From Isoetes taiwanensis (Eukaryota > Streptophyta > Lycopodiopsida > Isoetales > Isoetaceae), in the NCBI GenBank assembly GCA_021234155.1, contig JAJEKV010000787.1, positions 26,750-90,749 of the forward strand: a stretch of DNA of 64,000 nucleotides, given 5' to 3'. The notes below the pieces were generated by a model. That model did no database searches and had not been told where the DNA came from. It was given only the letters and a program-made list of their open reading frames with translations. The position numbers were made by a program, and so were the translations under genes. Below are positions 1-4,383 of the stretch, in pieces. The number at the start of each line of letters is the position of its first letter. The stretch's first letter is position 1.

Positions 1-3000
1 TCCGTCGACTTTTGTGCCTCACCTTTCTACCAGTGGTGGCTATGGCAAACAGAAAGAATTTCTTATTGGGTTCCACAATTAACTCTTCTTCCTCCTCTGT
101 TCCTTATCCAGTCCCTGACGTCATTGCCTCAAATGGGTGGTCGGATTCCAGACATACCTTGCTTACAAAATGGCAGGTGTCTTCAGATGTTCTTATTGCC
201 TTGGCATATTTTTCCATCCCATTAGAAATCATCTATTTCATCTTTAAGTCTCAGGTAAAATCATCAATTCCTTGAGCTGGTTTTCTTTTTTCTATAAGAA
301 GTTTGAAATGCTATTTTTATCAACATGTGGTACATTTATTTCAAATTGATGCCTCAGTATACAAAAAATTTGGCCTATGTAACCTGCAGGTATTTCCCTA
401 TCGATGGGTTGTAGCTCAATTTGGCCTCTTTATTGTCCTCTGTGGCACTACACATTTGCTTACAGTATGGCATTACAGTGCAAATACAGCTGCTGCTCAT
501 ATAGTCATGACTGTTTTCAAAGTGTTAACTGCTCTTGTATCATGTTCAACTGCCGTGCTTCTGGTTTGGGTGATCCCTGAAACTTTGGATGTGAAGAAAA
601 GGGAGCAGTTCTACACTCAAAAGGTAAGAAAGTTTGATATGTCGCTTATAAAATTTGCCCCTGATGTAACAACCTTAGGTTCCCTGCTTTCTTATCATGG
701 GAGACTAATTGAGGATTGCAGACTGCAGAGCTTGGTATTGAAGTGGGGAAGATAAAGAAAGATGAACAAACATTGCGGAGTGTTCGGATGTTGACAGACG
801 AGATTCGTAGCACACTAGATAGAAAGACAATTTTAGAAACAACTATAATGGAGTTAGCCAGAACCCTCAATTTGGAAAGCTGTGATATCTGGATGCCAAA
901 GCACGGTGAACCGGATCTTGAGCTTACCCATAGGTTTGGAGCAGGATTCAACTTTTCCAAAATTCCAGTTACACATGGGATTATTAGAAGGGTAAGCATA
1001 GGATGTGTATTTCCATGGTAATCAATTATTTGAATATGAAAAGTTCTTGATGAAGTCTATCTCCTACTTGTATACTCAGGTTTTAAGTAGCCATACTGCA
1101 AAGGTCATTCCAGATCTAAATGATATTATTACAGAAACAAGTTTGGATAGTCCGGGTAGTGCAGCAAATTTCAGCCCAGGTAGCGTAGCAAGCTCTGGTA
1201 GCTTAGCAAGCCCAGGTGGTGTAGTTAGCCCCGGAAGGTCTACAAGCCTAGATGGAAAGAATTTGGCAGATGCAACTACGCTCAACCGAGACACAATCTT
1301 ACGGAAATCTCAAACTGGGAGGATTGCAGCTGTACGGCTTCCAATCCTTACATTTGAAGACAACAATACAGATGCAGAAAGTTTCGGAATTATGTTACTT
1401 GCATTGCCTAAAGATTCAGCAAAGCCTTTTTCTGCACATGATCTTGAGTTGATTAATAATGTCGCCGACCAGGTAACCATTGATCCCTTTACCTTTTAAA
1501 GATAAAACTTTTAGCTTATGTCAAGAATAAATGCCTGGCACATTTCTGGGACAAAATTTTTTGCTTCGCACATATAGTAATGTTTCGTAGTTATATCTGA
1601 TTGTTTGAACTTCAAAATAACCATGTTTCTATTAGTGGATATTTTGGTAATTTTAACAGGAAGCACATACTTTAAACCTCTTCCCAGTGGACATATTTTT
1701 GCCATTCATATATTTGCAGCTTATGAAAATTTATTGTTTGATGTCTGAATCTCTTGCATCTCTAGCAATCCACTCAGAATGTACATTTTGCAGGTCGCTG
1801 TTGCTCTTTCACACGCAGCTGTAGTGGAAGAAGCAACAAGGAGCAGAGATAAACTAATGGAGCAGAATGTTGCCCTTCAGATAGCAAAACAGGAAGCTGA
1901 AGCTGCAGTCATTGCTCGGAATGAGTTCCTAGCTGTCATGAACCACGAAATGAGGACACCTATGCACGCCATCCTTGCATTGTCATCTCTACTTCTTGAT
2001 TGTCCCTTGGGTGAAGATGAGCGCTTAATGGTGGAAACGATTACTAAAAGTGGAAACCTGCTTGCCATGCTAATCAATGATGTACTAGATTTTTCAAAGC
2101 TGGAGGCAGGAAGCTTGTCATTAGATGTCCATCCATTTGTTCTCCCTGAACTTCTCAAGGAAGCTGAGAGACTTGTCATACCAATGGCAGATTCCAAAAC
2201 TCTGTCAGTATCTATGAACTGCCAAAGCGGGCTTCCTATCAATGTCATAGGGGACAGCAATGTCGCCTTCTGCAGATAATACTAAATGTGGTATGTATTT
2301 AGGTTTTGCAGTATTGATTGATTTAAACATTGCTGTGAAAGTGAAAGCAGCTAGCGCTTGCAGGTTGGTAATGCTATTAAATTCACCAAGGAAGGAAGTG
2401 TAACCATCACAGTCAGTTCAAAAAAGGCAGAAGATTTGGAAGATGACCCTAGTTCACCTGGACAGCAGAAAACCGAAAAACATTATCTACATGTTGAAGT
2501 TAAAGATACTGGCATTGGCATTAAGGCATCTGACATACATCGCCTGTTTAAAAGTTTGTGCAAGCAGATAGCAACCGCGACTTCGTAATTTTAGGCGGAA
2601 CTGGTTTGGGTCTTGCCATCTCGCAGAAATTTGTTGAGGTAATGCTTTCTTGTCAGCATCTGAGCTATTAAATTGTATCCTGCTAAAGCTGACTAATTCA
2701 TCAATTGTCAGTTGATGGGAGGCAAGATATCTCTGGAAAGTGAAGGCATCGGCAAGGGTACAACCTGCAAATTCTTTATTGTTCTTCTAGTTATCCCAGA
2801 GGATGAGTGCAGCTTAACTACGCCAGGACCAAGACCTGCTGTAGGACCTGGTTCTCCTGAGGATTTTAGAGAACAGGCATTGGCAACTGAAGCAGGACCA
2901 AGAGAAGCACAACCTCCTGAGGCAGTTAGTGGTGGAGCAGAAATTAAAGCACAGCCTGTGGCAGAAAGTGGACCAAAGCCTGGTATAGAAGCTAAACTAG

Positions 3001-4383
3001 AAGCTCAAGCACAACCCGTTGTGAGGCTTGAAGAAGAATATAGAATAGAACCTAGGACAGAAGCTGTAGGAAAATCTATTAAATTTGAGGTGGAATTGGT
3101 TGAAAAGGGAGTACAAACTGTTGTTGAAAAGGGAGTGCAAACTGTTGCAGAACCTAGTGGAGGAGTCCAAGAGGAAATTAGAGCACAGCCAAGTGCGAAA
3201 ACGGTAGCAGAGTTTAAAGCAGAAATTGGAGCAGGATTAGATGCAGAATCTAAAGTAGAACCTGTTGCAAAATCTAGAATAGAAACTGGAGAAGAACATA
3301 AAGCTCGACTCACTACAACAGACACTATGCAAGAAACCAAAGCTGGACCTATTGCAGAAATCAAAGAGGAACATAGAGCGCAACCAGTTACAAAATCTGT
3401 GGCAGACTTTAAAGCAGAAACTGGGGCTGGACTAAATGAAACAAAAACAGAACCTGGACTTCAACCTGTTATGAGACTTGAAGGAGAGCCTACAGCTGGA
3501 GTAGCATCAACTGCAGAATCTAGAATAGAACCTGCTGCAGTATCTGCTGTCTCAAGTGCAGAAGTTGTAGTGGAAACAAAACCTGAAGTAAAATCTAGTG
3601 CAGAATCTAGTACATCTAGAAGGATAATGCAAGCTGGCGAATTGAAATCATTAAAAGTAAGAGAAAGAAAGCTTTTCCTCCAAGATCTAATATCAAAAAT
3701 AATTCTAAACATAATCGATTTGCAAACTAAATTTTCGTAATGCAAAACTTGAATTCAAACTTTTAACAAGAGAGTAGCTATTTTACTGACTCATCTAAGG
3801 AACAGGTCATGGTTGTAGATGACAATGGAATTAATAGAATTGTTACAAAAAGGCTATTGGATACTATTGGATGCAAATCCACGGTCGTAGATTCTGGAGA
3901 GAACTGTCTTGCCACATTACACAGCCAGGGAATTAAATTTTTCAACCTCATCCTCATGGATCTGCTAATGCCAGAGGTGATATGATCCTCCCCTTCATAA
4001 TAATAACCTAATATAATTAAATTGGGATTAATACTGATTTGAGTGATTAAGTGTTGCTGTTTGTTAAAGTGGTTAAAGTCACACTAACATCTTACAAAGG
4101 CCAACTTCTTAAATGAGAAAGTATCTAATTCTAAACATATACAACCATAAGATATTGTTGCTGTCTTATATAAATATCATCTATCTTTTTTCAGATGGAT
4201 GGGTTTCCAAGCAACCACAGAAATTTTTTGCGCTATGGAAATGTTAGACCTCTAATAGTTGCATTAACAGCTAATGCAGATCAGAAAACTAAGGACAAAG
4301 TTTATGAAATTGGAATGGATGGGCTGTTAAATAAGCCCATCTTTGTGAATATATTAAACGGCATTGTTAAAGTACTTAGATAG
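1..4383 (+). CDS. ETR: ETR-type ethylene receptor, 5'-truncated by window edge, nine visible exons
   Basis: Ethylene-binding histidine-kinase-like receptor of the ER membrane. Exons read from GT-AG sites: <1-254, 390-623, 722-991, 1080-1472, 1794-2290, 2364-2638, 2712-3656, 3806-3976, 4195-4383. Exon 1 gives a hydrophobic leader ([13 protein letters not shown]) and TM1 ([15 protein letters not shown]). Exon 2 gives VFPYRW and [11 protein letters not shown], with the Cys and His that bind copper in ETR1. Exons 3-4 hold the GAF domain, exon 5 the H-box ([15 protein letters not shown]), exon 6 the N box (GNAIKF), G1 (DTGIGI) and G2 (GGTGLGLAI). Exons 8-9 hold a complete receiver (VVDDN, phospho-Asp in [22 protein letters not shown]). 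The kinase boxes suggest subfamily I, the leader is subfamily-II-like. The N-terminal Cys-x-Cys of ETR1 is not seen. One base is missing from A-runs near 2259 and near 2551; adding one A to each restores the frame. Confidence 0.93.
1149..1247 (+). repeat. 18-bp in-frame tandem repeat in the GAF domain of the receptor
   Basis: Five degenerate 18-bp units within exon 4 encode six-residue repeats close to SPGSVA ([30 protein letters not shown]). They sit where other ETR proteins have a GAF loop before the conserved strand read here as [12 protein letters not shown]. Units keep the frame, so this looks like an expanded surface loop in a functional protein. A spliced-out segment is possible, but I see no splice sites flanking it. 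Confidence 0.85.
2790..3656 (+). repeat. Low-complexity repeat-encoded linker between kinase and receiver domains
   Basis: About 288 codons in exon 7 with no stop, rich in Ala, Glu, Lys, Pro, Val and Gly, built of degenerate short repeats (EKGVQTV twice in a row at 3109-3150; [11 protein letters not shown] near 3211 and again as [11 protein letters not shown] near 3403). It follows the last kinase strand ([13 protein letters not shown]) and ends at a consensus donor (gtaaga at 3657); the next exon opens the receiver with VMVVDDN. Known ETR proteins have a linker of a few tens of residues here. The stretch looks intrinsically disordered. The open frame over 860 bases argues that it is translated. 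Confidence 0.85.

Follow-up and report, generated by a model that had tools for sequence, protein, structure and literature searches.

A predicted ~283-residue low-complexity tether between kinase and receiver in one ethylene receptor lineage of Isoetes taiwanensis

Judged from sequence, a long tether between the histidine kinase and the receiver domain is a real trait of one ethylene receptor lineage in Isoetes taiwanensis, because the intact-looking gene on contig C1036 has 283 residues at this place, versus 23–25 codons in three other receptors of the genome. We consider it likely that the tether of this lineage, ~283 residues of low complexity, is coding and acts as a disordered spacer, that the copy in the window is a recent pseudogene, and that the tether of C1036 was overwritten by the window type through gene conversion.

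The window is a stretch of 64,000 bases (C538:26750-90749), and the genome searched contains 1,658,258,908 bases in 1,110 contigs. The published assembly, built on nanopore data with racon and pilon polishing, including an Illumina polish, is described as 1,658.30 Mb with an N50 of 17.40 Mb in 204 scaffolds and 909 contigs (PMC8566536). The contig that holds the window is 90.7 kb long. The first 4.4 kb of the window contain an ethylene receptor gene, of which exons 2-9 are complete and exon 1 is present for its larger part. All eight introns are GT-AG. The features are as follows.

1..254, + strand: exon 1 (C1036 exon 1 homology; GT donor at 255; Pfam ETR1_N); its start codon lies ~66 bases upstream of the window, and it encodes an N-terminal signal-like segment and the first transmembrane helix
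390..623, + strand: exon 2, remainder of the ethylene-binding transmembrane domain (ETR1_N 64.2 bits; AG..GT)
722..991, + strand: exon 3 (AG..GT; C1036 homology)
1080..1472, + strand: exon 4, covering the GAF region, into which a Ser/Pro/Gly repeat is inserted (GAF 19.3 bits; 18-base length difference from C1036)
1794..2290, + strand: exon 5, HisKA with H box (HisKA 64.3 bits)
2261..2279, + strand: 2-base insertion relative to C1036, then premature TAA at 2277-2279 (alignment and translation; insertion absent in C299)
2364..2638, + strand: exon 6, three indels in the HATPase_c region (alignment; HATPase_c 31.4 bits on part)
2712..2789, + strand: start of exon 7, final 26 kinase-domain codons
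2790..3641, + strand: tether, 284 codons, low complexity, open
2807..3890, + strand: apparent gene-conversion tract common to the window and C1036, ends approximate (three-way informative sites)
3099..3147, + strand: tandem duplication of 24 bases that encodes VEKGVQTV two times and differs little between both linker types
3657..3805, + strand: intron 7, phase 0, GT-AG
3806..3976, + strand: exon 8, first half of the receiver (Response_reg 30.7 bits, cut-off 30.2)
4195..4383, + strand: exon 9, second half of the receiver, with three indels when aligned to C1036 (Response_reg 19.4 bits, under the cut-off)

The SPGS-unit insert in exon 4 (window 1140-1250) varies between the window, C1036 and C299 copies in increments of 18 bases. 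From 6 to 64 kb of the window, Rfam and tRNA scans gave no match, and none of the three ORFs of at least 160 aa was assigned to a family.

Domain searches identify the window gene as an ethylene receptor gene by homology. The ETR1-type ethylene-binding membrane domain (PF25487) scored 35.3 bits in exon 1 and 64.2 in exon 2 against a cut-off of 27, and GAF (PF01590) scored 19.3 bits against 22.4 with exon 4 alone. HisKA and HATPase_c were both above their cut-offs in the window, mutually out of frame, and are continuous in C1036. A C-terminal receiver of the hybrid-receptor type was present, with Response_reg above its cut-off on exon 8. Hybrid receptors usually, though not by definition, have a short linker between the catalytic domain and the receiver; here it is 283–284 codons. 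A Pfam search of exon 7 found no family.

The C1036 gene (C1036:8254449-8258923) has nine exons, eight GT-AG phase-0 introns and an uninterrupted coding sequence of 1091 aa with one terminal stop. Its exons of 300, 234, 270, 375, 495, 273, 942, 171 and 216 bases are all multiples of three. The readable motifs are the H box, IILNVVGNAIKF, DTGIGI, GGTGLGL, VVDD, LLD, ALTA and NKP. The best PDB matches of its kinase were, in order, 7z8n (2.3e-48), 7p8e, the ETR1 catalytic domain 4pl9 (1.8e-40) and ERS1 4mt8, and that of its receiver was 1dcf, the ETR1 receiver (1.6e-22). Between the same landmarks, receptors on C1018 and C1048 have 75 bases (25 codons) and 69 bases (23 codons), and C823 has 70 bases with a frame change. 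The earlier note had pointed to short-linker relatives as a check, which these receptors of the same genome provide in part. On C1018, at least four separate ETR1_N matches, one with stops, lie within 0.27 Mb (C1018:31585877-31851925), a stretch that looks like a cluster of receptor genes or fragments. A third copy of the long-linker type, at C299:54100-67700, is 95% identical to C1036 over the main 5' block and is broken: ~9 kb of extra sequence lies within exon 6, exon 3 has 6- and 20-base deletions, and the exon 4 donor and exon 6 acceptor are changed.

The open linker stretch is real. Exon 7 (2712-3656) consists of the 26 kinase codons, 284 low-complexity codons and LKSLK, and it joins the receiver exon in frame via a phase-0 intron. 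The window frame is open from 2697 to 3740. The 289-codon frame at 2790-3656 contains no stop, and the other two forward frames contain 20 and 30. In 500 dinucleotide-preserving shuffles, the same frame had a mean of 19.7 stops and a minimum of 7; the longest open run in the three forward frames of 1000 shuffles was 151 codons. These counts bear out the earlier note, which had described exon 7 as open through ~288 codons between the last kinase strand and the receiver. Its placement of the linker at 2790-3806 holds for the start; the linker proper ends at 3641 and the intron at 3805.

The linker is composed of E (15.9%), A (13.1%), V (9.9%), T (8.5%), G (8.1%), S (7.8%), P (7.4%) and K (6.4%), with aromatics at 5 of 283 residues. 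It holds degenerate internal repeats, including a 97-base pair at 75% identity spaced 195 bases apart, so the low-complexity repeats in the same note were also found. The mean TOP-IDP value was 0.255 for the linker versus 0.052 for the remainder of C1036, and the linker was at the charge–hydropathy boundary (0.436 vs 0.435). AlphaFold prediction of C1036 exon 7 from one sequence gave a mean pLDDT of 43, with 53–57 for the kinase strands and no residue at or above 70. As the prediction was poor across the whole exon, kinase strands included, it neither supports nor contradicts disorder of the linker in particular.

The possibility that the linker is a transposon or a domain of another gene was rejected. 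Nine six-frame genome matches fell at seven places, namely the window, C1036, C299 and four transposon copies with a captured part of the gene.

These four copies belong to an element of 4.46–4.50 kb at C1040 (12102580-12107066), C1084, C1049 and C544. The element ends in a 15-base terminal inverted repeat (TIR), CCCGGGGATTTCACC, and is flanked by an 8-base target duplication in all four cases. Each contains the receptor gene from intron 3 to the middle of the linker, that is, exons 4-7 with their introns and half of the linker, and all four have the same internal deletion of 288 bases of exon 5, H box included. A fifth locus, C323, has a shorter part of the captured piece. The right 800 bases of the element occur at at least 53 places (40 of 641 candidates scored), indicating that the family is larger than its gene-bearing members. 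These sequences indicate that part of the receptor gene was captured by a TIR transposon family and multiplied with it. Pack-type TIR transposons are the class that carries host gene pieces, and the C1040 family is like them in its 15-base TIR, 8-bp target duplication and captured exons with introns. The 8-bp duplication presumably fits a hAT-like or similar superfamily.

Linker identity between the window and C1036 was 97.7% and intron 7 identity 97.3%, versus 78.6–94.1% for the other introns and 90.9–95.9% for the other exons. Three-way informative sites among the window, C1036 and C299 were then counted. In exons 1-6, the window stood alone at 183 sites and C299 at 26. In the linker and intron 7, the window stood alone at 11 sites and C299 at 172. 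From intron 8 to the 3' end, the counts were 69 and 5. They were 9 and 5 in exon 8, and 8 and 7 in the block made up of intron 6 and the kinase codons of exon 7. The best run score was 164 versus at most 34 in 2000 permutations, with switch points near 2807 and 3890. By this pattern, a gene-conversion tract running from the linker through intron 7 into the beginning of exon 8 pairs C1036 with the window; elsewhere C1036 pairs with C299. An origin of the tract in assembly copying is unlikely, as the two linkers differ by 20 substitutions and one 3-base indel.

The captured copy on C1040 settled the direction. In the two flanking blocks, 99 sites (77 + 22) grouped it with C1036 and C299 and left the window apart, while the window paired with C1036 at 2 sites and with C1040 at 4. 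In the linker, the window and C1036 stood against C299 and C1040 at 32 sites, and the window paired with C1040 at none. The simplest history is that C1036 was formerly of the C299 type and was then overwritten by the window type. The first linker half of C299 has an excess of private differences (44 sites vs 9 and 4 in the flanking blocks) and 1–2-base indels, though its flanks are nearly identical to C1036. Decay or assembly error may explain this excess; these are the only explanations we offer.

The earlier note had proposed comparing dN/dS between the linker and its flanking domains, and this was done in part. For the non-linker exons of the window and C1036 (774 codons, the 26 kinase codons of exon 7 left out), there were 88 synonymous and 67 nonsynonymous differences, giving dS 0.186, dN 0.038 and a ratio of 0.21. 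For the linker, there were 4 synonymous and 16 nonsynonymous differences, giving dS 0.019, dN 0.025 and a ratio of 1.28; a second alignment of 275 codons gave 1.10 (bootstrap 0.38-5.17). The linkers of the window and C1036 are 94% identical in amino acids. Constraint was rejected as the reason for their high identity, because dS is 0.019 there versus 0.186 elsewhere and intron 7 is alike. Between the window and C299, the linker ratio was 0.77 (0.55-1.08; 249 codons), with 0.54 (0.34-0.90) for the first half and 1.13 (0.46-8.1) for the last 66 codons; as C299 itself is broken, its dN/dS is pushed towards 1. The ratios indicate near-neutral drift of the linker and constrained domains, with some constraint possible on the first linker half. 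The larger linker indels between the window and C299 (9, 24, 36, 39, 18 and 12 bases) are all multiples of three, a pattern that repeat units of 12 or 24 bases would give regardless of coding. In the first half of the linker, seven small indels of 1 or 2 bases also separate these two copies; decay of C299 or errors in its assembly would account for them, but they do not prove coding.

The window copy has no uninterrupted coding sequence. Relative to C1036, exon 5 has +2 after 2260, which leads to the TAA at 2277-2279; exon 6 has -1 after 2549, +2 after 2575 and +1 after 2595; exon 9 has +1 after 4206, -1 after 4228 and -2 after 4356. The H box is in frame, and from the N box onward the reading frame is shifted relative to it. 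The F/G2 region also differs, and the receiver is garbled in part. The seven indels and the TAA contradict the earlier view that the linker is flanked by retained kinase boxes and a receiver with all its positions. The suggestion in the same note that the protein may be functional fails for the window locus as assembled; judged from sequence, it holds for C1036 with its matching tether. Most likely, the window copy became a pseudogene recently. Because its non-linker exons were long under purifying selection, the gene was probably working until recently. It was rejected as an allele or haplotig of C1036, since homology to the C1036 stretch spans only from about -66 to 4509 of the window and the introns apart from intron 7 are just 79–94% identical.

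The frameshifts could instead be errors in a nanopore assembly polished with Illumina reads, in which case the window gene would be intact and both copies would make long-tether receptors. The described polishing with racon and pilon (PMC8566536), the position on a 90.7-kb contig, the purifying selection on the exons and the lack of frame-breaking indels in exons 1-4 favor this. We nevertheless regard it as unlikely, because the seven indels in exons 5, 6 and 9 are mixed with substitutions, several lie outside homopolymers, and none falls in the long-identical tract. It is also conceivable that the linker is absent from the main product, removed by alternative splicing or lost because the transcript ends early. 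Near-neutral change of its residues and the three other receptors that manage without a long linker agree with this. The absence of stops from 289 codons in two copies, versus a shuffle minimum of 7, the strong phase-0 boundaries kept in the window and C1036, and the larger indels in threes speak against it and make it quite improbable.

Selection for docking, with short conserved islands binding partners and the remainder serving as filler, is very unlikely. Among the 45-base windows listed, linker identity between the window and C299 does range between 43% and 98%, the tandem VEKGVQTV repeat is 96% identical between otherwise diverged linker types, and the genome has 14 matches to dynein-light-chain-family proteins. 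However, dN/dS of the whole linker is not confidently below 1. The tandem resembles the LC8 motif, yet both repeats have valine at +2, described as disfavored for LC8 binding (PMC6607443), and LC8 docking there was judged weak. A combined model seems highly improbable to us: the receiver would be loose on a disordered tether of ~280 residues spread between paralogues by gene conversion, the tandem GVQT island, its best-kept part, would dock a dimeric partner, and tether length and docking, rather than the geometry of the kinase, would determine receiver output.

The best reading is that the tether is probably a near-neutral, disordered spacer that leaves the receiver attached but loosely placed. 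It may have grown through internal repeat duplication. If intrinsically disordered, it would act as an entropic spacer, tying the receiver to the dimer and loosening its position relative to the kinase. Its length would determine how concentrated the receiver effectively is around the kinase histidine and how the receiver is placed with respect to partners. Length and an open frame would matter, and most residue identities would matter little; little need for residue identity fits near-neutral change with the frame kept.

Among known systems, ethylene response sensor ERS1 is not known to have a receiver, and the histidine dimerization region of C1036 matches its structure 4mt8 (1.5e-35). Arabidopsis ETR1 has the same domain order as C1036, whose catalytic domain matches 4pl9 and whose receiver matches 1dcf. 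The ETR1 catalytic–receiver linker is given as 21 residues, S590-L610 (PMC12643061), versus 283 in C1036, so the earlier description of the linker as unusually long for an ETR protein stands. C1018, C1048 and C823/C912 of the same genome are like C1036 in having ETR1_N above the cut-off and a receiver; unlike C1036, they have 23–25 codons at the linker place, where C823 shifts frame. Among the papers listed for lycophytes or Isoetes, no title or abstract shown describes such a receptor tether. ETR1 linkers are described as flexible, full-length ETR1 as not crystallized, and AHP1 and others as binding the ETR1 receiver (PMC12643061, PMC13012798). With a linker ~13 times longer than that of ETR1 and short-linker receptors alongside it, the genome offers a ready experiment on whether receiver position matters, for which the gene of interest would be C1036 rather than the window copy.
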